64,000 nucleotides of DNA from Owenia fusiformis (taxonomy: Eukaryota; Annelida; Polychaeta; Sabellida; Oweniidae), in assembly GCA_903813345.2 (NCBI GenBank), contig CAIIXF020000007.1, positions 377,730 to 441,729 of the forward strand, given 5' to 3'. A program made the position numbers and the translations under genes. How positions within the stretch are numbered: the first letter of the stretch is position 1; each line of letters opens with the position of its first letter. Positions 4,342-63,705 of this stretch are shown here, piece by piece. The notes under the pieces were generated by a model. It worked only from the letters and a program-made list of their open reading frames with translations. It was not told where the DNA came from and made no database searches.

Positions 4342-5505
4342 CCCAGTTGTCCGAAACCCAGTTCTCCGAAACCCAGTTTTCCGAAACCCAGTTGTCCGAA
4401 ACCCAGTTCTCCGAAACCCAGTTTTCCGAAACCCAGTTGTCCGAAACCCAGTTGTCCGAAAATTAGGGGATCTTATTTGAAAAATACAATTTTTTTAAAC
4501 GAATCTCGTTGTCGCAACCTCTGCGAATCACAACATAACATTGGAATAACGTTGACATCATTGCAAAATTAGGCTAAATATGCGAAGTCATTGTAAAATG
4601 GCGTTTACACAACATACATAGATAGGGGTCTACAATTTTTAAACCAATTTTCTTTATGGCCCATGGGCCTTTTTTGAGAGGGAACAACATTTTTCCAATG
4701 GGTGATGAGCGTTCATAAAAGGAAAAATAGCTTTCCCAAGCCAGTGGGCATTTATTTAGTAAAGCCTTGACATGTACATCTTTTGAAACCAAAACTTATT
4801 CTTCATTTACGTACTCTGTTCGAGAAATAGAGATTAAAAGGATGAAGTGAGTACATGGCGAAAATGAAACTTCTTGCGAATGGGAGAACATCCATTTTGA
4901 TACGAGGACAGCCTGCCTTCGTTTCCAGTTGATCCCAAGTGATTAAGTTAAGAATGTTTTGTTCTTTTACGATTTGATAAAATACAGAGACTAAGAAATT
5001 AAATGCGACGAAATATTTTGACAACGTAATATGTATACTGTTTTATTCTTAAAGTACTATATGCGTAAACTTATTTTATCTGTTTCAAAATGATTCATTT
5101 TATTTTGCCTATATAAAAGAGATTGAAGAAGATAAGATAAACTGTTCCGTAATATATATTGTGTTTTGATAACTTTTTTTTAGAATCACAATGTAAAATA
5201 AATCCCCCGTTCCTGCCATTCTGGTAACGCGTGCAATGGATGCAATTCAAAGTGAGAGAGAGATCTATGAACATCAGAATGCGTCCATGTCATTAATTTG
5301 GCCAAATACATGGCATGAAACTGGCCTAAGCTTAGTACGGTTCCCCTTTCTCTGGTAAATTATGACTATTTTTCGGAGTAATGGGTTTCGGACAAGTGGG
5401 TTTCGGACAACTGGGTTTCGGAGAACTGGGTTTCGGACAACTGGGTTTCGGACAACTGGGTTTCGGACAACTGGGTTTCGGACAACTGGGTTTCGGACAA
5501 CTGGG
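4342..5505. repeat. Inverted pair of 15-bp minisatellites with unique core
   Basis: Eight units of CCCAGTTNTCCGAAA run from 4342 to 4461. Nine units of the reverse complement, TTTCGGACAACTGGG, run from 5371 to 5505. The 0.9 kb between them is unrelated AT-rich sequence without a convincing gene. The mirror placement gives the segment long terminal inverted repeats made of minisatellite, a form seen in some non-autonomous elements. The open frames across the arrays are translations of the repeat. The outer flanks both carry CGCTTCGCTCGCA in the same orientation. Confidence 0.8.
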
Positions 5506-5623
5506 GTGCACCCGCTCGCAGTTATAAAAATCATGAAAATATTCGCCGCTCGCTTCGCTCGCACCTCACAAACTATCTTCGTCTCCTCAGAGGCCATGAT
5601 GACCCCAGATACAGGCTCTAAAT

Positions 5624-5902
5624 TAGTTCAACAAGTTAAACCTAGTCTGGGCCTTATTTCTCATCTGACATATCTTGTGGCCCGCCCTAGGTTTAACGTC
5701 CGTGCCTATTCAGCCCTTGATGCAAAAATTTTAATGGTGGCCTATGGTAGCGCATAGAATTTCATGCGCGTTTAATTCATAACTGGTAGTGAGAATTTGC
5801 ATCAAATAAAGGCATAGCACGGAAGTTAAACCCAACCACGGTAACAAGAACATTCAGATTAATAAATGAAAGCCGTGGTATTGGGTTTAACTTGTTGAAC
5901 TA
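5624..5902. mobile_element. MULE-like MITE, 279 bp
   Basis: Perfect 19-bp terminal inverted repeats, TAGTTCAACAAGTTAAACC, bound the element. The nine bases GCTCTAAAT precede it at 5615-5623 and follow it at 5903-5911. A 9-bp target duplication points to the Mutator (MULE) superfamily. The inside has no coding capacity. The perfect ends and perfect duplication suggest a fairly recent insertion. Confidence 0.85.
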
Positions 5903-5911
5903 GCTCTAAAT

Positions 5912-6248
5912 AGGCAACTTCCATCGCCCCTAGGGCAAAGTAGGGCAATTTCGTGATTATATGATATGCGTGTCTTCAATGATATATGTAGTAATGCTTT
6001 ACCTGTGAACACGTTCCAAACTTTTGCAAATGTTTATTTATTTGCTTGCTAATGCGATCCCGTTGAAATTATTGAAAAACATATTGCCATGACGAAGTAA
6101 TTGCACATTTTGTGTATATGGCAACGTGTAGGACAAATTCGTTAAATGTAGGGCAATTTCGACGATAGGAGGGCAATTTCGTTATTGGAATAAAATGTTG
6201 TTAAAAACGAATTTACATTTTTTTCACTATCAAAAGGGTGAACTGTGA
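5912..6248. other. No gene; short interspersed AGGGCAATTTCG repeats
   Basis: The motif AGGGCAATTTCG occurs three times between about 5940 and 6180. Nothing else is recognisable. This is the left flank of gypsy element G1, and its last bases before G1 lead into the ATATT target site. Confidence 0.5.
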
Positions 6249-6253
6249 ATATT

Positions 6254-7978
6254 ATAAAATACTATCCAATAACCCGGAAGTGAATTATAGAAATATAGGT
6301 AGCGTGAGCCAGAACAAAGGGAAATTGGACTAGTACTTCATAAGAAATTACTAATGAGGTAAGTGATGAATCGGTGTCGGGAATATGATAGAATGATAGG
6401 TCTAGTGTAAAAGGGTGAAGTTACAAGGTGAAATATAAACCTACACAAATACAACACAGCAAGCTAAAAAGAATAAGGGATTAGGTACTTTAAATATCAC
6501 CACACCAACTACCAACTAATAGTAAATCACACAAGAAATATATTCATTCAATAAAGTCTATTCTATTATACTTGCGTTTCATGTCACAACTGAAATATAT
6601 ATGTACAATGCGAATAAATAGTATTTAAATTATATAGATTATAATTTACATAAATGCTTAGTGTCTTTAAATCTATTAGGATGAAATTAATCTCAATAAC
6701 GCTGAAATCTGCAGTCTGATAAAATGTCTTCAAAATTATGACCGGGATACTACTTCAAATCAGAAGAGAATTGCCAACAACGATCTTGTAATAAAGTTGA
6801 ATTTTATGCCCTCTATAAATTCAGTCGGGAACTAATAGCATGAAAAGTGACGTCAGATATGCGTTAAAAGCCCGAACGAGATTTCGATAAATGGGAAAGA
6901 GCTGTGAACTTTCAACCGTCAAAGACTAAGGATGTTATTTTAAACACCAGAGGTGCGAACTCAATGGAATGTGCCCGTAAGGACTTCTTTCAATTACAAT
7001 CAAATTCAAGTTCAAGTTAAAAGCTGTCTAGGATACAATAATCCACAAAGATGCTCAAGTTTTATGAATGAATCTAGACTTCAAAAGTGACGTATGTGAT
7101 CACGTGACTAAGTCGTCTGCTTTCCCCAAAGTTATGATTTAATTTGACCAATAATTCCCTTAATTGATAACGTGAATCTCTATTCTGTACTATCTTGAAC
7201 CTTCCCAGCATATGGGCTTATCAGGACAAACTCCCAATCTTGTTCAACTGTTACAGACTGCAGATAACACCGTTAGGAAATACGTGCGGGAAAAATGAAA
7301 GTTTTGAAATGTTTTCTCAAAGTTCAATTATCGATCAATATTACTGTCTTAAATCTCTTCACTCCCTAATGGAATGCTATAGATTTCTATACAGTACTGA
7401 AAATCAACTTACCCAAACGCCAACACCCCGTTTTCTGTCAAAGATCACGTTCATAGCTCAACCGATCAAATCTAAGGATACTGTGCTGTCAGGCTGTAGC
7501 GAGTATTTTCCGAATCTTAGGTTCAGCAGTGCAGGAATTGTTACATTGTATCCGCGAAAGACACTTGTTTATATAGCAACAGATGGACATACGCAATCTT
7601 GGAGACGACGTAGGTAAAAATATATGTAATGTTGCTAAAAATGGGATATTACCAAGGTTTTTAGAGCTACGTAGGGTAGAAAAAAGGGCAGAAAGAGCAG
7701 CTTATTGGACAAGAATTATGAGGTAGGGACTGAGAAAATGATGTCACTTTGAAAAGTGACGCAAAGTTGAGACTGCAAATTCAGCGTTTTACAATGATAA
7801 ATAGGTTTTTTCTATAAATATACTGGCTCTGATACGATGGTCCAGGTCTACGTATTGCAATAATATGATCATGTTAAAGGGACATGATATGGTTTAATAC
7901 TGATTATAGATATTAAAGGGGCACACACTGATTAAATATGTTATAATAAAATAGCTATATACAGGGTGGGTCTCTACA
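6254..7978 (-). repeat. G1 3' LTR
   Basis: 1725-bp long terminal repeat, read on the minus strand from TGTAGAGACCC to GTATTTTAT. It is nearly identical to the copy at 21265-22981. It includes an E-box ATCACGTGAC near 7099 and an ETS-type CCGGAAGT near 6273. An open stretch on the opposite strand (about 7195-7617) and a second one after it (7586-7726) are present but show no sign of selection. Confidence 0.92.
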
Positions 7979-21264: not shown

Positions 21265-22981
21265 TATCCAATAACCCGGAAGTGAATTATAGAAATATAG
21301 GTAGCGTGAGCCAGAACAAAGGGAAATTGGACTAGTACTTCATAAGAAATTACTAATGAGGTAAGTGATGAATCGGTGTCGGGAATATGATAGAATGATA
21401 GGTCTAGTGTAAAAAGGGTGAGGTTACAAGGTGAAATATAAACCTACACAAATACAACACAGCAAGCTAAAAAGAATAAGGGATTAGGTACTTTAAATAT
21501 CACCACACCAACTACCAACTAATAGTAAATCACACAAGAAATATATTCATTCAATAAAGTCTATTCTATTATACTTGCGTTTCATGTCACAACTGAAATA
21601 TATATGTACAATGCGAATAAATAGTATTTAAATTATATAGATTATAATTTACATAAATGCTTAGTGTCTTTAAATCTATTAGGATGAAATTAATCTCAAT
21701 AACGCTGAAATCTGCAGTCTGATAAAATGTCTTCAAAATTATGACCGGGATACTACTTCAAATCAGAAGAGAATTGCCAACAACGATCTTGTAATAAAGT
21801 TGAATTTTATGCCCTCTATAAATTCAGTCGGGAACTAATAGCATGAAAAGTGACGTCAGATATGCGTTAAAAGCCCGAACGAGATTTTGATAAATGGGAA
21901 AGAGCTGTGAACTTTCAACCGTCAAAGACTAAGGATGTTATTTTAAACACCAGAGGTGCGAACTCAATGGAATGTGCCTGTAAGGACTTCTTTCAATTAC
22001 AATCAAATTCAAGTTCAAGTTAAAAGCTGTCTAGGATACAATAATCCACAAAGATGCTCAAGTTTTATGAATGAATCTAGACTTCAAAAGTGACGTATGT
22101 GATCACGTGACTAAGTCGTCTGCTTTCCCCAAAGTTATGATTTAATTTGACCAATAATTCCCTTAATTGATAACGTGAATCTCTATTCTGTACTATCTTG
22201 AACCTTCCCAGCATATGGGCTTATCGGGACAAACTCCCAATCTTGGTCAACTGTTACAGACTGCAGATAACACCGTTAGGAAATACGTGCGGGAAAAATG
22301 AAAGTTTTGAAATGTTTTCTCAAAGTTCAATTATCGATCAATATTACTGTCTTAAATCTCTTCACTCCCTAATGGAATGCTATAGATTTCTATACAGTAC
22401 TGAAAATCAACTTACCCAAACGCCAACACCCCGTTTTCCGTCAAAGATCACGTTCATAGCTCAACCGATCAAATCTAAGGATACTGTGCTGTCAGGCTGT
22501 AGCGAGTATTTTCCGAATCTTAGGTTCAGCAGTGCAGGAATTGTTACATTGTATCCGCGAAAGACACTTGTTTATATAGCAACAGATGGACATACGCAAT
22601 CTTGGAGACGACGTAGGTAAAAATATATGTAATGTTGCTAAAAATGGGATATTACCAAGGTTTTTAGAGCTACGTAGGGTAGAAAAAAGGGCAGAAAGAG
22701 CAGCTTATTGGACAAGAATTATGAGGTAGGGACTGAGAAAATGATGTCACTTTGAAAAGTGACGCAAAGTTGAGACTGCAAATTCAGCGTTTTACAATGA
22801 TAAATAGGTTTTTTCTATAAATATACTGGCTCTGATACGATGGTCCAGGTCTACGTATTGCAATAATATGATCATGTTAAAGGGACATGATATGGTTAAA
22901 TACTGATTATAGATATTAAAGGGGCACACACTGATTAAATATGTTATAATAAAATAGCTATATACAGGGTGGGTCTCTACA
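21265..22981 (-). repeat. G1 5' LTR, main part
   Basis: Remainder of the right LTR, with the first 12 bases left at 16305-16316 on the far side of the foldback element. It ends in TCTCTACA (+ strand) followed by the ATATT target duplication. Confidence 0.9.
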
Positions 22982-23154
22982 ATATTGCTTTATGTGTTTT
23001 ATTGGGCATTTGTGTTATCCTGATTGTGATCTCTTGTAAATTCAAATTTATCAGCTTTATTGTATTTCAATCCCCATCAGGGGTCATATACAAAGCATAC
23101 AAATAACTACAAACTACTTAAGTACAAAAATGAAATATAAATGTGTAATGCCCA

Positions 23155-23213
23155 CGGATGGTGGGAAGTCCTCCATATATTACTTAGATAGATGGAGGAC
23201 CTCCCACCATCCG
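23155..23213 (-). repeat. Hairpin in the LINE 3' UTR
   Basis: Two 22-base arms, 23155-23176 and 23192-23213 (beginning CGGATGGTGGGA), pair with a single mismatch around a 15-base loop. The hairpin lies about 200 bases past the ORF2 stop. Some LINEs use a 3' stem-loop for recognition by their RT, so this is a candidate recognition structure, but it could also be a small insertion. Confidence 0.75.
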
Positions 23214-23410
23214 TAATAATGCCACTAGACCCACTAGTATATGTGAATAAATACATACTAGTATATATATGTGGCTAGTAGACACAACATGACAAAGAAT
23301 ATAGATGGTCATAGTCTAAATATTACTAGCTTTAGTACAGTAGATTATACTAAGTAGTGTCCGTTAAGACTACCAAGGGTCATGACATATTATTAATAAA
23401 CTGGCTTTGT

Positions 23411-26400
23411 TTAAGTTACATCGCACGATGAAATAAATTTTGCGACCAGGTTTATCTCGGTACCTTCACAAGTCATACAATAAAAGAAGAAATTAAAATT
23501 GTCAAGTTTTGAGCATTCGGGGGCCGTCTTTTCTAGCATAAATTTTAAGAATTCTCTCTGGTAAATGTATTTGTGGCATTTTGAAACAAAATGTAATTCA
23601 TCGTCCACTAAACCGCATGTTTCACATAGCCTTATTGCTCTAGGAATAATTGGTCTGGTGTATCTTCCTTTTTCGATTAATAACTTATGGTTTGAAATTC
23701 TAAAGCGAGTTAGTGCTTTTCTTGCCTGTGAACATTTAACATCCAACAGGTAGTTTTCAAAACTAAATAACTTTTTAAATTTTCTATAGGTTGACAATTT
23801 GTTAGAAATAGTTGGATCTTTCAAGTCCTTATTAAGTGTTTCTGACCAATATGATTCCCATATCAATTTTAGGGAGAGAGTAAGTTTATTCACATCAAAA
23901 CATTCATCGTTTGATCTACCAATGTATGCACCCACGTCAAGCTGATCGTCTAAATGATTTACTATAGTTTTGATTCTTGTGAACCATGGAAGGGAATTTT
24001 TAACATTAATTTCAAGACATTCCTTTAAAAGCTCGCTCTTTGATTGTTTAATATGGTTTGTAAAATTAATTGTTTTTGTGAAAATATCAATCATAATTGG
24101 GTACTGGCCTAATTCCCCTAATACTGCAAGATTGGTTGCTTTCTTGTTAACTCCTAAAATGTGTTTCATGAAAGATAAATGAAGTTTTTCTATTGGATTC
24201 TTATCAAATTTTGAAATAAAGCTGGCAAAATCATTCGGTTTACTGAGTCCTTTGATGCCCCATATTTCAGCTCCATATGTTATGATTGGATTAATTAATT
24301 GTCGAAATAACTTAATACTTAATTTTGGATTAGGAGTAGAATCCTTGAGCCACCTTTTAAGCTTAAAGACTGCTTTCAAACCTTTGTCATATATTTTAGA
24401 TTCTGCTATTTTCATATTTCCTGTGATTGAGAAAGTAATACCCAAGTATTTGTACTCCCTTACGCATTCCAAGGGCTGGTTTTTGTACCAAAAAGTATCC
24501 TGAGTTAATTTGCCATTTGCTTGGAACTTGATAACTTTGGATTTTGAAGTATTAACAGAAAGTTTCCAGTTATCTAAGTATGTTTCTAAATGGTTTAATG
24601 AGTGTTGTAGACCTTCTTTTGATTCAGATAACAGGATTATGTCGTCTGCATATAGGAGCAAATTTATTGATGTACTTGATAGTTTCGGGGGATTAAATAA
24701 ATTCTCTTTACCTTCAAATACTTCTGGCAAGTCGTTCAGATACAGGTTAAAAAGACAAGGCGACAAAGTATCTCCCTGCTTAACGCCGCTATTAAATGTT
24801 TCAAAATTTGTTATGTTCAGCTCATGTTTAATACAAAATTTGGTGTCCTCATAAATTGTTGACATTAATTTAAATAGGTTCCCTTTGATCCCGTATTTTA
24901 AAAGTTTATAGAATAAGCCCTGTCTCCACACAGAATCAAATGCTTTAGATAAATCGATAAAACAGCGTATAATGGTTTCTTTCTGTTTTTACTAAGATCT
25001 ATCAGGGTGTTGAGAACAAACATATGGTCTGATGTCCTCGCACCTTTTTCAAACCCAATCTGGAATCTAGTTTTAATTTTCTTTGACTCCAGAAAGGAGA
25101 CTATCCTGTTATTTATGATACTATTTAAAACTTTACTCAAAGAACAGTTGATTGTAATACCCCTGTAATTGGTTTCTAATGACTGGTCCCCTGATTTAAA
25201 GATCGAAGTAATATAGCCAGTCTTCCATAAATCTGGATATACATTGTTACTCAACATTTTATTAAATAATATTTTTAGGTAAGGTGTTAGCAAGTGACTA
25301 GAGTTTTTTATCATTTCATTGCTAATACTGTCCAGACCAATAGCCTTGTTAGGTTTAAGATCTCTAATGACACGGTCAATTTCAATATTTGTTATTTCAT
25401 CGTCGAGTACACTTGAGTGCGGTTCATTTACTAGATTTTCAATTTTTTTCTGAAGATCAGGATCCTTATAGTTATTATTGTTTAGAAGTGAATCATAATG
25501 TTTAGTCCAATCTTCAGGAGATAAAGATGAATTATTCACATCATTGTTTTTTGAAATATTTCTTAACTTGTCCAATAATTTCCAGTATTCTTTTGGATTA
25601 TTCTCATTTAAGTCCTCTATCTTTTTAAGAATCAGTTGTTTGTATTGTCTTTTTTCTTGTTTGCATTTTTTCTTGAATTGCCTCTTCTTTTTGTAGAAAG
25701 ATTCCCTTAAATTATTGTTGGATGGGGTACATGCTAGTTTTTTCCCTAGTCTTAAAAGCTCGCGTTTTATCTCAGAGCACGACTTGTTAAACCAAGATTT
25801 AGTTTTCCGTTTGTTTTTCTTATACGTTTTTGGTATTAAACAAGATTTAGCAGCATGCATAATAATTTGAGTGAGCTTATTTACATCATTGTTTATGTCA
25901 ACATCATCAAACTGTGTAGATTTTAGACATTTGCTTAATTGTTCATTGAACACTTGGGATCTTGAGTTGTCCCACACAAAAGTTCTGGGTAGTTTGTTCA
26001 AATTATTTATGTTATCCTTTTTGTTATTATTCTTTGAATATTTAGCTGCCAGTAAACAGGAAACAGCACAGTGGTCTGACAGACCCCCATTGAATTCATG
26101 AACTTTGAAATATTTGATTTTGTCCATAATTGACTGATGAGTAATTATGTAGTCAACACAACTAGAACCGTTATAGTGATGGCAAGTTAATTTGCCGCTT
26201 AAGTCTCCAAAAGTTCTTCCATTAAGTATTCGACATTGAGAGGATTTGCATAATTCAATTAATTTTCTACCCTGAGAACATGCTACCTTATCTTGATTAA
26301 ACCTATTTAGTAAAGAGGTGTCATCGTGGGGTAGACAAGAAGAGGCTCCATCGTGGTTGTCATGACCATTTTGTATGAAATCAGTTAAATCCCCAGTTCT

Positions 26401-26907
26401 AGAGTTAAGATCACCTAGAATGATTATATCCCCTTTATTAGAGTAAGATATCATCTCCTCCTCAATATCTTCAAATGCTTGTAAGTTGTTATTTTTACTG
26501 TAAGTTGAATTTAGGGGTGGTATATAAACTGAGGCTATGAAAATATCCCGTTGGAAATTGAAAAACCTTCGTTTTAATTTAATCCAAATCCGGTCACTAC
26601 TTTGAGTGATATTTAGTAACTCAATTCCTGACCATATTTCATTTTTTACAAATATTGCCACCCCACCTGAAAATTTAGTCGCCTTTTTATGTTTATTTCT
26701 GGCATTGATAATTTGTTTATACCCGTCAATATTTATAAATGTACCCGGCTTGATATGTAGTTCATTTAATGCCACAATGTCATGCCCCCTGATAGTCTTT
26801 AGGAATTCCTCGTCATTAATTTTTTGATTGTCCATGCTTTTGTTATAAATACCTTCTATGTTCCAATGTAGTAATTTGACACCATTTATCGTGGTTTTTA
26901 TCGCCAT
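23411..26907 (-). pseudogene. LINE ORF2: APE-like endonuclease and reverse transcriptase
   Basis: The first 245 or so residues form an exonuclease-endonuclease-phosphatase fold: LHWNIEG, the catalytic Glu in VALNELHIK, IILGDLNSRTG, SCVDYIITH and GGLSDHCAV. A linker rich in Lys and Asn follows, then a reverse transcriptase with the YADD catalytic box (LLLYADDIILLS), KQGDTLSPCLFNLYLNDLP, and the thumb region YKYLGITFS. The C-terminus has a CCHC-type motif (CETCG...H...C). A one-base loss near 24960 separates the palm A motif (FIDLSKAFDSV in outline) into another frame. All other catalytic residues are present. The ORF nicks target DNA and primes reverse transcription in this family. Confidence 0.9.
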
Positions 26908-27343: not shown

Positions 27344-29895
27344 TCATATGTACTTTAAAATGCTCCTAACTTTTGTTTTAATGTTATTGAAGAGAAGTTT
27401 CTCACCCTCTTCGTTTGGGTGACATAAATCCCTTTTAAACAGTCTTGGAATGACCTGGTGTTCATAATCAGATAGGTTTTTATGTCCCCACCACATAGTG
27501 TGGGGCCATATTGTCGGCCTAGGCGCGTCCGTCTGTCTGTCCGTCTGTCCGTCTGTCCGTCTGTCCGTCTGTCTGTCCGTACGTCCGGCAGTTTTCTCCA
27601 AAACCGCTACAGATATCACCTTCAAATTTTCAGGGATAACTTATGAGTGCATACAGATGTGGATGAAAAAAAATTAACTCGATACCTACTTCCTGTCGGC
27701 CATTTTGAAGTCAAATGCTAAAATCCTTGTCTGCAAACTTTAAGAAAAACTGCTTCACAGTTGCTTTTAAAACTTTAACATCTTGTTCAACTCACTTCAT
27801 TCTAGATCTGATTAGGTTTTGGACCTGCTAGCTCAGTCATGTCAGCCATTTTGAATGTCTTAAGAAAAGTTAGCGCGCGATAATACTTTGTATCATATTG
27901 AATGGTGTTTTTGAGTTTTCATACTTTAACTGTTTAGTAGCTTTATAAATAATTTCAGATGTACTTTGCTGTAAAAGCCTACTTTATTGTTAACAGTAGT
28001 TATATGTGATAATTTTGTAAAAAAAAATCAGCAAAAACTCATAAGGACTTTTTTATTGTCGGCCATTTTGGATTTTTCGGTCCTAAAATCTTGTCTGTGA
28101 AGTCTTGTCTGCGCGTTTTCAGGTGAACCGTTTGGTGGATCAATTTCAAATTTTCAGGGATGATTCTTAGTATAAAAATCTAGATCTCATTAGTTTTTTG
28201 GCATTCTGGGTAAATGTCAAGGCAGCCATTTTGGATTTTCCGTCCTAAAATCTTGTCTGTAAAGTCTTGTCTACTCGTTTTCAGGTGAACCGTTTCGTAG
28301 ATCAATTTCAAATTTTCAGGAATGATTCTTAGTATGAAAATCTAGAACTGATTAGTTTTTTTGCATTCTGGGTAAATGTCAAGGCAGCCATTTTGGATTT
28401 TCCGTCTTAAAATCTTGCCTGTAAAGTCTTGTTTACGCGTTTTTAGGAGAACGGTTTGATAGATCAATTTCAAATTTTCAGGGATGATTCTTTGTATGAA
28501 AATCTACATCTGATTACTTTTTTTGCATTCTGCGTAAATGTTAAGGCAGCCATTTTGGATTTTCTGTCCTAAAATCTTGTCTGTAAAGTCTTGTCTACCC
28601 GTTTTCAGGTGAACCGTTTGGTAGATCAATTTCATATTTTCAGGGATGATTCTTAGTATGAAAATCTACAAACAGATTAGTTTTTTGACATTCTGGGTAA
28701 ATGTCAAGGCAGCCATTTTGGATTTTCCATCCTGAAATCTTGTCTGTAAAGTCTTGTTTACATGTTTTCTGGTTAACTGTGTGACGGATCAATTTCAAAT
28801 TTTCAGGGGTGGTTCTTAGTATCAAAATCTAGAACTGACTAAATTTTTGGCATTCTGGGTAAATTTTAAGGTGGCCACTTTGGATTTTCTGTCCTCAAAT
28901 TGTGTTGGTAAAGTCTTGTCTACTCATTTTCAGGATAACCATTTCACGGGATCACCACTTGGTGGGGACATTTTGTACACATTTGTGTTCTTGTTGTTCT
29001 TGCACAATGATATGAAAGAGGGATAGCTGCCGTCGAAATATTTGTCTTCGATACAAGAGTTAATGTAGTCTACTTTTTTGTTGTATTCCGGATTATCCCC
29101 TCTGTTTGGAAGTAGCGAAATTACAAACTTGTCGTTTTGGTAGACTTCATGGGTATCCTTAATTAGACATTCCAGATCTTCAACGCATGTGTCAGGATGT
29201 TTGTGTTTTAGATCATTCGATAGTTGTTGTAACACAATAACATCTGGTGTAGTGGTAAGATTATTCAGTGTGTATCTTGCTTCGTCAATTGTGTAAGCCG
29301 TACAGTTTCTGGTTGTCATTTTGTCGCTAAAGCGTTTTGGATCGAGGTTTTTCAATATTGATGTTCCAATGATTGTAACATTGGGCTTATTTTCTTGAAA
29401 GTGTTTATTGTTAGATGATTGATGATTGGAATATCGTGGCTGATGATACTGTGACGAGCCATGATACCGTGGTGGTGAAGTGTCACGATTTTGATTTCTT
29501 CTGTCCCGGGTTTGATTTCTCTTATCCCAATTTCTGGATGCCGTTTCACGTGATGGGCTCCTAGGCCTACGTTGTCTATATCGTGGTGTTGGTGTCATGT
29601 CCTGGTTTTGATTACTTCTGTCCCAATTTGCTGACATAGTTTCACGAGAGGAGCTCCTAGACCTACGTTGTTTATATCCATGGGTCGGTTTCGAAACTCC
29701 TGGATAGAGGGCAGTAGTCACTTGACTTACTTGTCCGGATTGGTTGTTCCCATCCTGATTAATAATAGCCTTGGTAATTGTTGTCTGGGTTGTATGTGGT
29801 TCCTGTACAAAAACTTTTGGAGAATCATTCACTTTAGAGGATGTAGATTCTTCCTCACACTGATTTAGAATTAGGAACCTATTATCATCTTTCAT
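27344..29895 (-). pseudogene. LINE ORF1b: SGNH/GDSL esterase, interrupted by a 1.5-kb insert
   Basis: The ORF starts at an ATG that overlaps the stop of ORF1a (ATGA). The N-terminal 160 residues are rich in Arg, Ser, Asn and Gln with YRQRRPRSPSRE-type repeats and are probably nucleic-acid binding. An SGNH hydrolase follows: block I GTSIL supplies the Ser, DVIVLQQLSNDLKH carries the Asn-Asp block, and RDLCHPNEEGEKLL near the C-terminus has the Asp-x-x-His dyad. The last 46 residues lie beyond the element inserted at 27482-28971. Without that element the codons flow in frame as VYK-NLSDYEHQV, which shows that this is one gene. Esterases in ORF1 are known in CR1-like LINEs and may act on lipids or membranes. 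Confidence 0.85.
27482..28971. mobile_element. Inverted-repeat element with 162-bp tandem repeats, in ORF1b
   Basis: The tips are ATGTCCCCACCA and, from the other strand, ATGTCCCCACCAAGTGG, with a 3-bp direct repeat TTT (27479-27481 and 28972-28974). Inside, 27526-27590 is a GTCC/GTCTG microsatellite. From about 28059 to 28960 at least six units of about 162 bp recur, each with GGCAGCCATTTTGGATTTT and TCAATTTCAAATTTTCAGG (starts near 28059, 28221, 28383, 28544, 28708 and 28870). No coding region is visible. It is a non-autonomous DNA element whose insertion interrupted the esterase gene. Confidence 0.8.
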
Positions 29896-31314
29896 TTCTG
29901 ATAGGAGATTCGCAACGTTTCCATCAATTTTTCGACCTTCCTTTGAATTTCATCATATTTCTCCTGTATACTTAGGTCATATTGGTTTTCTTTGTTACCA
30001 TACTTCTGGTTTAATCTTGGTCCCATGTTTTCTACTTTCAAATATATCTCTGATATTTTATCATCCATTTTACTGATTTTTCCTGCCATTAAGTCCAACT
30101 TGTCATTTAATTGTACTGTGAGTGAAGCAAGGGCTTCCTCTGTTTTAACTGACTCCTTTTGTATATTTTTTAGCTTCTTTCCGGAAATATCGTGTTTGTT
30201 TTGAATCGCATTAATTTTACCAACCATTTGAGTTGTAAGGTCATTCATAGATTTCTCCAATGTAGCAGACTGCGAGTTTACTTTCGAACTATCTGATATA
30301 ATCTCAACTAATTCACACAGAGTGGCTTCAATTTTTTCAAAACGATCAGTTGTCATCATAAGTTTCCTTGGAGATTTTGATACATTAGCCAATTTCTGGG
30401 GAGTGTCTGTTCCGGTGTCTCTCCATTGCTTCTTTACAGAATCAATTGTTTTCTTGAGATCAGTTGTGTCAAATTGGGGTTGGTTCCGAAGTGTGGGTGT
30501 TTTAATATCATCTATGGGACAAGGAATATCACTTTCACAATCGACTGTGTTAACTGTTCCTGTTTTTCCTACTGTTGGTGTACTCATGTTTACTTCATTT
30601 GTATTGGCCTTGGTATTTTCAGCATTTTTTAAGATCAGTTTTATTTCATCATTATCGTCATTATCAGCGCAACATGCTTCACATACATATTGACGTCTAA
30701 CTTTGGTTTTGTACTGGGCTATCTCGTATGCCGGAAGTTTGGTGCACACATAGTGTATCCATTTGATACATTTGTTGCACTGGATCATATAATCATTGTC
30801 CAGCTCCTTACAATATGGGCAACTTGGACTTGGTGTTATTGAGTTGTTTTTCTCATTATTTTCACATTGTGTGTTAGTGTTTTTTGCCAACCCGCGTTTT
30901 GCTAACTGGTCAGCTTGTTCATTTCCATGTATCCCGGAGTGACCTCTTACATGTGTCCATTTAATGTTGATATTGTTTTCCCTGATTGACTTGAATAGTA
31001 ATTTCCATCGTTCCACCTTCTTTACTCCAACCCATCCCTTACTAGCCCATTTGTACATCCAATCGGAGGCTCCATTAATAACAGGTACTGTCCGACATTA
31101 TTTCCAAATTTTTCATCTTGTTTTTTGTTGCTAGAGTTAAAGTTTTGATAGCAGCTTCAAGCTCTGCTTTTTGATTGGTTGGAATAGGGTCATTTAGGGG
31201 TTCACTCACATTTAAGTTATGTAGGTTTTTATTTTCCCAGTAAACTCCAATACCTCCTCTTGAGTTTGGCATGCCATTTTTTTCACATGCTCCATCTATA
31301 TAAACAACCTCCAT
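29892..31314 (-). pseudogene. LINE ORF1a: RNase H, PHD finger, coiled coil
   Basis: The N-terminal 140 or so residues are a type-I RNase H with all four acidic positions visible: VVYIDGACEKNG, NQKAELEAAI, EIMSDST and RGHSGIHGNEQADQLAKRG (the last with the His of the active-site flap). A PHD finger (C4-H-C3) follows: CPYC, CNKC, HYVC and CEAC. After an acidic, Thr-rich linker come about 150 residues of heptad-like sequence (SATLEKSMNDLTTQM onward), probably a coiled coil for oligomerisation. A one-base gain near 31080 splits the RNase H. In other LINEs RNase H, when present, lies after the RT, so its N-terminal place here is striking. It could remove RNA from the cDNA hybrid in trans. Confidence 0.85.
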
Positions 31315-31320
31315 GTTTAG

Positions 31321-31554: not shown

Positions 31555-32400
31555 AAAATTTTGCGGTAGATTTTTTTAAAATTGCTGTATTTTTGCGGTA
31601 GATTTTTTCAAAATACGGTAGTTTTTGCGGTATTTTTCAACAAAATTGCGGTAGTTTTTGCGGTAGATTTTAGAAAAAAACGGTAGTTTTTGCGGTAGAT
31701 TTAAAAAAAACAGTAGTTTTTGCGGTAGAATTAAAAAAATACGGTAGTTTTTGCGGTAGAAGTTTAAAATATACTGTAGTTTCAGAGGTTTGGGGTAGAT
31801 TTTTGAAAAAAGTGTAATTTTGCGGTAGAAATTTGAAAAAAGCGGTAGTTTTGCAGAAGATTTAGAAAAAATACGGTAGTTTTACGGTAGCTTTAAAAAA
31901 TGCGGTAGTTTTTACGGTAGTTTTTTGAAAAACCGGTAGTTTTGCGAAATATTCTGAAAAAATGCGGTAGTTTTACGGTAGATTTTGAAAAAATGCGGTA
32001 ATTTTACGGTCGTTTTTTGAAAAACCGGTACTTTTGTGGAAAATTTTGAAAAAATGCGGTAGTTTTACGGTAGATTTGAAACAATTCGGTAGTTTTTACG
32101 GTAGTTTTTTAAAAAACCGGTAGTTTTGCGGAAGATTTTGAAAAAATGCGGTAGTTTTACGGTAGATTTTGAAAATTGCGGTAGTTTTACGGTAGATTTT
32201 GAAAATTGCGGTAGTTTTTACGGTAATTTAAAAAAAAACGGTATTTTTGCGGAAGATTTTGAAAAAATGTGATAATTTTATGGTAAATTTTGAAAATTGC
32301 AGTCGTTTTTACAGTAATTTTTTGAAAAACTGGTACTTTTGCGGAAGATTTGCCAAAATGCGGTATTTTTCGGTAGATTTTGAAAAATGCGGTAGTTAAA
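31555..32400. repeat. Degenerate CGGTAG tandem array
   Basis: About 850 bp of variants of TTTTGCGGTAGATTTTGAAA and AATGCGGTAGTTTTTACGGT. The basic step is irregular, with alternating T-runs, A-runs and GCGGTAG or ACGGTAG words. It is a diverged minisatellite. It starts just after ATACCTGCCAACC and ends near 32395. No gene is present, and the frames that stay open are by-products of the repeat. Confidence 0.8.
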
Positions 32401-61549: not shown

Positions 61550-63705
61550 GGTTATAGGTAAATTAATTGTTATGCAACAAACGGCTTATATTAATGGTCG
61601 TTTTATAGGAAATAGTAGCCGACTGGTATTAGATGTATTTGAATATTTTGAAAATCAAAATCAGATAGGTGGCGCTATAATCTTTCTTGACTTCCAAAAA
61701 GCGTTTGATAGTATAGAGTGGAATTTTATGTATGAAACGTTGAAAAAATTTAAATTCAGTGATAAGATTATCAAATGGCTCAAACTTTTATACGAAAAAC
61801 CTTTCTTAAACATTAAGCAAAATGGATGGTTATCAAAAAATATTGATGTTGAACGCTCATGTCGGCAGGGCTGCCCCGTTTCCGCAATGGCATTTATTTT
61901 ATGTTGCGAAGTTATGAACTTAGCAATTCAGCAAAATAATGATATATCAGGTATAACTGTTGATGGTAAAGAATATAAGATGTCCCAATATGCGGACGAT
62001 ACTTCACTTTTCATTAAAGATAAAGAGTCATTGAAAAATGCTCTTAATACTATTTCCAATTTCTCAAAATTTTCTGGTCTGAAGTTAAACATAGAAAAAA
62101 CTGAAGGCATTTGGCTTGGAAAAAATAAGGACTTTGAAAAGAAATGTGAAAATATAACTTTTTCTGATGAACCAATCAAATATTTAGGAATCTTTTTAGG
62201 ACACAACAAACAAAGATGTTATGAATTAAACTGGGAAGATAGAGTAAAAAAGGTAGAAAAATATTAGACAGCTGGAAGAACCGATACTTAACACTTTTTG
62301 GCAAAGTTACAGTGATTAAATCACTGGCAATTCCAAAATTAACTTATGCAGCATCAGTATTATCTGTGCCACATGAGATTATAAAAAAAAGTAAACAATC
62401 TTGTATATAAATTTCTATGGGATGAAAAAAAGGACAAAATAAGAAGATCTATAATCATAAATAATATTAATAAGGGTGCAATAAATATGATTGACTTAGA
62501 GTCTCAAATACATGCACTTAAAGCAGCATGGATCCCCCGTTTGCATAATCAAAACATTTACAATAAAATCCCTTACTTCTATTTCAATAAATTTCTTCCA
62601 AATATAGATGTATTATTCAAGATAAATGATACTAGATTCAAAGAATTTGAAAATGTTCCACTTTTTTATCAACAAGTGCTGGAAGCACATTGTTTATGTA
62701 AATGCATCAAAAATATAAGAGATATGAAGCAACATGAACTCTTGCAAGAGGTTATATGGGGAAACAAATTATTCACCGTCAAAAATAAACCAATTTTCTT
62801 CGAATCATGGATCAAAAGTGGAATTATATACATAAAAGACTTGATAATTCAGAACAGGTTCCTTGATGTTAATATGTTATATCAAAAACTTGTAAATAAA
62901 CAAAATTGGATATCTGAATATTACAGAGTTTTATCAGCCACGGGCACACTGAAAGAAAGATTCAATTTAGAATCTGTCAAGTATACAAATATTCATAATA
63001 CTTTTAAATTTAATATAAATAATGTGATTATCACTGTGAATAATCAGAAATCCAAATTCTTTTATGAAATATTAAAAAACAAACGATCGGAAAAATGGTT
63101 TATGAAAAGGAAATGGGAACAAGAGTTTTGCTATGAAGCCAATGATGAAATAAATTGGCAAAACTTTTTCTCTACAAAAATAAGTTGTAAAGAAAAGAAA
63201 ATAGGTAATTTCAACTTTAAAATAATCAACAATATTCTTCCTAGCCTTAGTGATTTATATATATTTGGTAAAAGTGAAACCTACAAATGTAGTTTATGTA
63301 ATGAATTATGTTCCTTAAAACATTTGTTATTTTCATGCTCATATTCTCAAAACATTTGGAAACATATTTATAATATCTCAGGGTTAAGAGTAACTTACAG
63401 AAAATTGATAATTGGTTACGATGGAAATGACAATCATACTGAATTTTTAAACTATTTTATAAGTATTGTGTTATTTATAAAACATATATTCAAGAACTGA
63501 ATAATGGTATTAAGCGTAATTTTGAAGGCACTATTAAAACTTTAAATTTTGAAATCTGTACTCTTAAAAATGTATTTTTTAAAAACAAATGGAAAATGAT
63601 TAAAACATAACTCATTATACATTATTGTAATTAATTGTATCATTGTATTTCTGTATCGTAAAAACCTAAATTGGAATAAACTATATTAGAAAAAGAAAAA
63701 AAAAA
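61550..63705 (+). mobile_element. 5'-truncated L1/Tx1-like LINE
   Basis: Flanked by a 14-bp target duplication GATACTTAAAATAA (61536-61549 and 63706-63719) and ends in an A-rich tail (AAAAAGAAAAAAAAAA in outline). It inserted into the G4 right LTR in the opposite orientation to it. Only the C-terminal part of the RT ORF is present, as usual for 5' truncation during target-primed reverse transcription. It is younger than the LTR that it entered. Confidence 0.92.
61560..63610 (+). pseudogene. L1-like LINE ORF2: reverse transcriptase and C-terminus
   Basis: The frame opens within the RT fingers (MQQTAYINGRFIGNSSRLVL). Palm motif A is FLDFQKAFDSIEWNFM, motif B is CRQGCPVSAMAFIL, and the catalytic box is SQYADDTSLFI, followed by KLNIEKTEGIWLG. 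The later part has YKCSLCNELCSLKHLLFSC, the Cys-His element typical of the L1 C-terminus. Three one-base shifts occur, two of them in A-runs: near 62260, near 62390 and near 63480. The endonuclease half is absent because of truncation. The motifs favour the L1/Tx1 group over CR1. Confidence 0.88.

Follow-up and report, generated by a model that had tools for sequence, protein, structure and literature searches.

LINE families of Owenia fusiformis with an RNase H domain in front of a PHD finger in ORF1

Introduction

This study concerns a long interspersed nuclear element (LINE) in a stretch of 64,000 nucleotides of the genome of the annelid Owenia fusiformis (C7:377730-441729, hereafter the window; positions without a contig name are those of the window). 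The element is of the apurinic/apyrimidinic endonuclease (APE) type and lies on the minus strand, from approximately 31.3 to 23.04 kb. Its first open reading frame (ORF1) encodes an RNase H domain, a C4HC3 PHD finger, a coil region and an SGNH esterase, in this order, and ORF2 encodes an endonuclease and a reverse transcriptase (RT) without RNase H. Protein searches of the genome (498 Mb) revealed three further places with the same domain order, which we grouped as family F1.

The element in the window

The window copy is damaged, with a frame break in the RNase H domain, another one in ORF2 and a 1.5-kb insert in the esterase. An earlier interpretation of the bare letters (the sequence-only reading) had taken 31314-29892 as a single open frame. 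We found instead that RNase H is spread over two overlapping frames of the minus strand, 31323-31075 and 31097-29892, with one frame break separating its halves. The N-terminal half (31087..31320, minus strand) contains the blocks YIDGAC, KAELEA and MSDS with the active-site residues D, E and D, matches PF00075 (E=1.2e-11) and is 45% identical to F1 ORF1 over query residues 4-80. The C-terminal half (30888..31082, minus strand; GHSGIHGNEQAD) carries the H and the last D and corresponds to residues 6-70 of the 401-aa second frame, again with a PF00075 match (E=2.5e-10). The four acidic positions and the HSGIHGNEQAD motif noticed earlier are present, with the fourth acidic D and the motif located in the second frame. 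The same frame continues into the PHD finger (30672..30821, minus strand), which matches PF00628 (E=8.4e-6; 26.2 bits versus a cut-off of 24) and has eight metal ligands that align with those of F1. Both PF00075 matches and the PF00628 match exceed the Pfam cut-offs. The two frames align nearly end to end with the F1 ORF1 (query residues 4-80 and 83-404).

The coil region (29964..30461, minus strand) is 24% identical to F1 and gives coil-type Pfam matches below the cut-off (ATG17_like, 0.026; Apolipoprotein, 0.086). Of the two features that had been placed behind RNase H, the PHD finger is confirmed by its Pfam match and the coiled coil depends on these weak matches. The sequence-only reading stopped short at this point, as the esterase part of ORF1 and the whole of ORF2 are situated further downstream. 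The N-terminal part of the SGNH esterase, with the IIGTS and SND blocks (29038..29388, minus strand), is 38% identical to residues 464-586 of F1 ORF1 and has no Pfam match when this segment is searched alone. It is split by the insert (27479..29037), more than half of which is a tandem array of 162 bp x 5.4 at 28062-28934, from the C-terminal block with the D-x-x-H pair (RDLCH; 27356..27478, minus strand; 46% identical to F1 ORF1 599-639, E=6e-6).

ORF2 is encoded in two separate frames on the minus strand. The first (24958..26889) covers the APE endonuclease and the start of the RT (PF03372, 3.2e-9; PF14529, 1.6e-8; 41% identical to F1 ORF2), and the second (23414..24982) covers the RT and the C-terminal part (PF00078, 3.5e-27; 42% identical to F1 ORF2 661-1190). 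In this second part PF00078 is the sole Pfam match at E up to 1, with no match to RNase H. A 3' untranslated region follows (23038..23410, minus strand), and family matches stop at about 23044-23038. Ten of the 58 other match rows of the 3' part end within seven bases, at query positions 657-663 (92-100% identical). The window family includes 5'-truncated copies, some of which are 99-100% identical in the 3' part, and it has therefore also been mobile recently. Its RNase H-PHD part was found in the window copy only, in genome protein searches that give a lower bound.

Three further features of the window were observed. A tandem array of approximately 31/92-bp units rich in GCGGTAG (31559-32394) lies directly upstream of ORF1. 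Beyond the 3' end, a repeat at 22701-22990 has 26 further long match rows with 91-100% identity, several of which cluster on C10, C11 and C7 and two of which lie elsewhere in the window. A further RT fragment, 27% identical to F1 ORF2 (E=3e-6), is located on the plus strand at 61680-62201.

Family F1 and its open ORF1

Two F1 copies (C7:18497464 and C8:36813936) contain an open ORF1 frame of 644 aa (640 aa from the first Met), and the third (C8:14714706) is 5'-truncated and starts inside RNase H. The three ORF1 copies share 99.7-100% DNA identity, and the two with the open frame lie at unrelated sites. RNase H in front of a PHD finger at the start of a LINE ORF1, as the sequence-only reading had proposed for the window, is thus encoded in one open frame in F1, and independent copies with this order and the same downstream ORFs exist within this genome.

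The F1 ORF1 was analyzed with hmmscan, which assigned residues 9-153 to RNase H (E=1.8e-37), residues 183-232 to a PHD finger (E=0.0043) and gave a GDSL lipase match (0.025). The latter two matches are below the Pfam cut-offs; the C4HC3 ligands are complete and the catalytic blocks of the esterase align. When five esterase segments from the genome were combined into a profile, the best match among solved structures was the ZfL2-1 ORF1p esterase (4c1b; 6.3e-10). No RRM and no CCHC match was found in F1 ORF1 at E up to 1, and no N-terminal hybrid-binding domain was matched, the protein starting at the RNase H catalytic domain. In one copy, ORF2 is 1190 aa long with endonuclease and RT domains (RVT_1, 1.7e-38; Exo_endo_phos_2, 1.1e-7), without a PF00075 match at E up to 1.

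The homology between the two longest F1 copies starts approximately 129 bases upstream of the first Met of ORF1, and their flanks are unrelated. This shared start is seen in two copies only and may represent the 5' end of the shorter of the two rather than the true 5' end. Other copies start at staggered points, as expected for 5'-truncated LINE insertions, and the 3' ends agree within about ten bases. A search for target-site duplications gave 6-8-base candidates only, not all of them at the homology ends. In the C7 copy, ORF2 is interrupted by an insert of about 1.4 kb (about 5157-6564 of locus L036) that includes an ORF of 286 aa and is lacking in the other two copies.

Other RNase H loci and sister families

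A search for RNase H in the genome listed 71 match rows, part of which were read as loci, and 45 loci were scanned for their context. Four belong to F1 or the window family, 33 are other RNase H places and eight have no signature by the pattern used; three of these eight (L054-L056) are not RNase H loci. An RT motif is present upstream in the same frame at 15 of the 33 other places and a PHD finger within 90 aa downstream of RNase H at none of them; the methods therefore tell the two arrangements apart. Unlike the RT-linked LINE type, the RNase H of F1 and the window is not placed after the RT in ORF2. A search with RNase H-PHD alone, which again gives a lower bound, returned the three F1 places and the window and nothing else.

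F1 and the window family have diverged. Over the aligned parts, they are 41-42% identical in ORF2, 45-49% in RNase H, 42% in the PHD finger, 37% in the esterase and 24% in the coil. The D-E-D-H-D active-site residues are kept in F1 and, across the frame break, in the window. For RNase H, the proportions of nonsynonymous (pN) and synonymous (pS) differences between both families are 0.32-0.36 and 0.76-0.77, respectively; pS is saturated, and the comparison therefore shows constraint and gives no rate.

In the nearest sister family, F3 (44% identical in ORF2), one copy reaches upstream (L054); it contains the esterase without a match to RNase H or PHD, and a second F3 copy begins inside the esterase. 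A more distant sister (L056, C6:12357001-12359800; 35% identical in ORF2) has an open ORF1 of 696 aa at 564-2651 with coil and SGNH domains, but its N-terminus is unrelated, with no RNase H and an N-terminal domain without Pfam match. This suggests that modules are swapped at the ORF1 N-terminus. Because L056 has a full ORF1 without RNase H, the domain characterizes this lineage and is not shared by all related families.

Affinities of the RNase H domain

In a phmmer search against the PDB, the highest score was obtained with human RNase H1 (117.8 bits), followed by E. coli-type RNase HI (92 bits) and HIV-1-derived RNase H chains (59-69 bits). A genome contig collection without eukaryote genomes yielded at least 526 confirmed relatives, the best 80 of which all have bacterial titles, and viral contigs gave three RNase H matches, covering only query residues 11-157. 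Trees were built with 24 of these best 80 bacterial loci, the three viral-contig rows, nine RT-linked rows from this genome (from 11 chosen loci; L016 and L050 gave no row) and two RNase H1 rows only, human and a partial host row. A second set of trees omitted the window row as well as L061 and L107. The host row initially contained one residue set by analogy, on which its RNase H1-block mark rests, and one or two end residues that are possibly intronic. Two trees and two approximately unbiased (AU) tests were rerun with corrected host letters and the main grouping was unchanged; the AU tests including the window row use the uncorrected host row, except that of F1 plus window.

One group, with support of 100/99 (99/99 with the corrected host row), unites F1 and the window with the RNase H1 rows of human and host. 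Without the window row, F1 joins both RNase H1 rows with support of 99/99 (100/99 with the corrected row). F1 and window are sisters in one tree (82/44), a relationship that was not recovered with the corrected host row (AU p 0.353). With moderate strength, the trees thus place the domain beside cellular RNase H1 and apart from the RT-linked type, the alternative that the sequence-only reading had set beside a cellular source, although AU tests do not reject rival placements.

The alignment scores of F1 are 302 for human RNase H1, 296 for the best bacterial row and 49-85 for the RT-linked rows; the window RNase H scores 238 with human and no more than 191 with any bacterial or viral-contig row. 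F1 contains the RNase H1 block WGxGxPLN and the GWK handle, the latter being missing in all nine RT-linked rows. By the pattern used, the NPG motif is present in 23 of 24 bacterial and eight of nine RT-linked rows and absent from F1. Since F1 is 51% identical to host RNase H1 exons over 85 residues, the domain was not copied recently from the host gene. A eukaryotic RNase H1 is likely, though not proven, to be its source, judging from these alignments and trees.

Two intron-split RNase H1-like loci were observed in the host genome (C1:31623946-31625898 and C1:60516850-60519814), the second with several overlapping partial matches. Host RNase H1 exons are 73% and 53% identical to human.

Proposed origin and function

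The element probably belongs to the CR1/L2 lineage, because its ORF2 lacks RNase H and its ORF1 contains a PHD finger and an SGNH esterase; this assignment uses ORF1 content and ORF2 make-up. We favor, with moderate confidence, that a CR1/L2-like two-ORF APE LINE took the catalytic domain of a eukaryotic RNase H1 into the N-terminus of ORF1, where it would clear the RNA of hybrids. The ORF1 protein is assumed to bind and multimerize on the RNA of the element, by analogy with other LINE ORF1 proteins, and would bring RNase H into the ribonucleoprotein (RNP). After target-primed first-strand synthesis, RNase H, acting in trans to the polymerase, would degrade the RNA strand of the RNA:cDNA hybrid, and second-strand synthesis could then take place without host RNase H2. 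A broader version, to which we give slightly less than an even chance, is that a LINE lineage put a captured host RNase H1 on its gag-like RNA-coat protein, making it independent of RNase H2, with a nuclease on every RNP and the PHD finger possibly docking the RNP on chromatin.

Several observations weigh against the favored proposal. RNase H-PHD places are few (at least four in the genome), and none of the copies read combines a full-length open ORF1 with a full-length open ORF2: in the F1 copies with a full ORF1, ORF2 is broken, through an insert in one case and a frame break in the other, and ORF1 is truncated in the copy whose ORF2 reaches 1190 aa. The GWK handle is missing from the window RNase H. 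The 24 bacterial RNase HI rows share 44-50% identity with F1, and human RNase H1 shares 42%. In addition, AU tests did not reject a placement of F1 among bacteria (p 0.156 to 0.338) or of the RNase H with the RT-linked type (p 0.062 and 0.078 without the window row and 0.346 with it).

The main role of the RNase H fold in the ORF1 protein might be to bind hybrids or RNA and not to act as a nuclease. The missing handle of the window copy would fit such a role, as would the F1 ORF1 without RRM or CCHC match, but the complete D-E-D-H-D set in F1, and in the window across the frame break, makes it unlikely. Alternatively, an active RNase H could work before integration, on hybrids that are sensed by the host or stall the RNP, as counter-defense or housekeeping and not for second-strand synthesis. 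A domain carried by ORF1 and not by the polymerase need not act at reverse transcription; yet the literature, as far as the cited sources are accessible, ties the RNase H of LINEs to template removal after reverse transcription (PMC6068448, PMC5348765), and we regard a pre-integration role as quite unlikely.

With regard to the source, a bacterial RNase HI would agree with the identities to bacterial rows, with the best bacterial score of 296 being close to the human score of 302, and with the AU values for F1 among bacteria. It is decidedly improbable in view of the grouping with RNase H1 (99/99 to 100/99), the NPG motif of 23 of the 24 bacterial rows that F1 lacks, and the window score of 238 with human, compared with a maximum of 191 among bacterial and viral-contig rows. 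An RT-linked RNase H of another LINE that was shifted to the front appears very unlikely as well: such LINEs are common in this genome and the AU tests gave p values of 0.062 to 0.346 for a common clade, but the RT-linked rows show the opposite motif pattern to F1 (no GWK in nine of nine, NPG in eight of nine), F1 has WGxGxPLN in addition, and their scores with F1 are 49-85 versus 302 for human RNase H1. Both origins are disfavored. Finally, the broken frame of the window copy could indicate a separate RNase H sequence that landed by chance upstream of a LINE, a reading refuted by F1, in which two copies encode RNase H together with PHD, coil and esterase in a single open frame, and the same order recurs in the third F1 copy and in the diverged window family.

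Relation to known LINEs and significance

LINEs that bear an RNase H (I clade, plant and oomycete L1, Utopia) encode it after the RT in ORF2. For the I clade, this order is given in the accessible part of one source (PMC3849965). Repeated capture of an archaeal-like RNase H by LINEs is known, and the available text of another source calls the multiple acquisitions enigmatic (PMC5348765). The families described here resemble these LINEs in having an RNase H of their own and differ from them in its position at the ORF1 N-terminus and its RNase H1 type. With eukaryotic RNase H1, F1 shares the catalytic domain, the active site, the WGxGxPLN block and the GWK handle; unlike it, ORF1 has no matched hybrid-binding domain, and its catalytic domain belongs to a mobile-element protein that also contains PHD, coil and esterase.

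CR1/L2 LINEs with PHD and/or esterase in ORF1 (types III and IV) are similar in their APE-RT ORF2 without RNase H, in the PHD or SGNH domain of ORF1 and in 5' truncation. A survey of ORF1 in the Jockey superfamily describes, in its accessible part, RRM, CCHC, PHD, esterase and coil domains in CR1 and L2 lineages; the terms RNase H, RNaseH, ribonuclease and RNH do not occur in that part, and its table does not list esterase and PHD together in one subgroup (PMC4120745). ZfL2-1 has the coil and SGNH esterase in ORF1 as well, but an ORF1 RNase H or PHD finger is not reported for it in the material available. We found no description of an RNase H in a LINE ORF1 in the literature, as far as its text was accessible and with Repbase outside the search.

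The RNA of a LINE must leave the RNA:cDNA hybrid before second-strand synthesis, and LINE-1 and the zebrafish L2 element ZfL2-2, both without RNase H, need host RNase H2, according to the accessible text of PMC6068448. ZfL2-2 thus resembles the present elements in having no RNase H domain, as in their ORF2, and differs in its dependence on host RNase H2. The same text states that overexpression of RNase H1 partially rescues LINE-1 upon loss of RNase H2 (PMC6068448). F1 and the window family resemble a naturally occurring form of this rescue, namely a CR1/L2-like element with its own RNase H1-type domain. The RNase H on ORF1 might let the element complete its copying without host RNase H. These families therefore bear on how LINEs that lack RNase H remove their template and on what an element gains from an RNase H of its own, and, if active, they would make the RNase H question directly testable.

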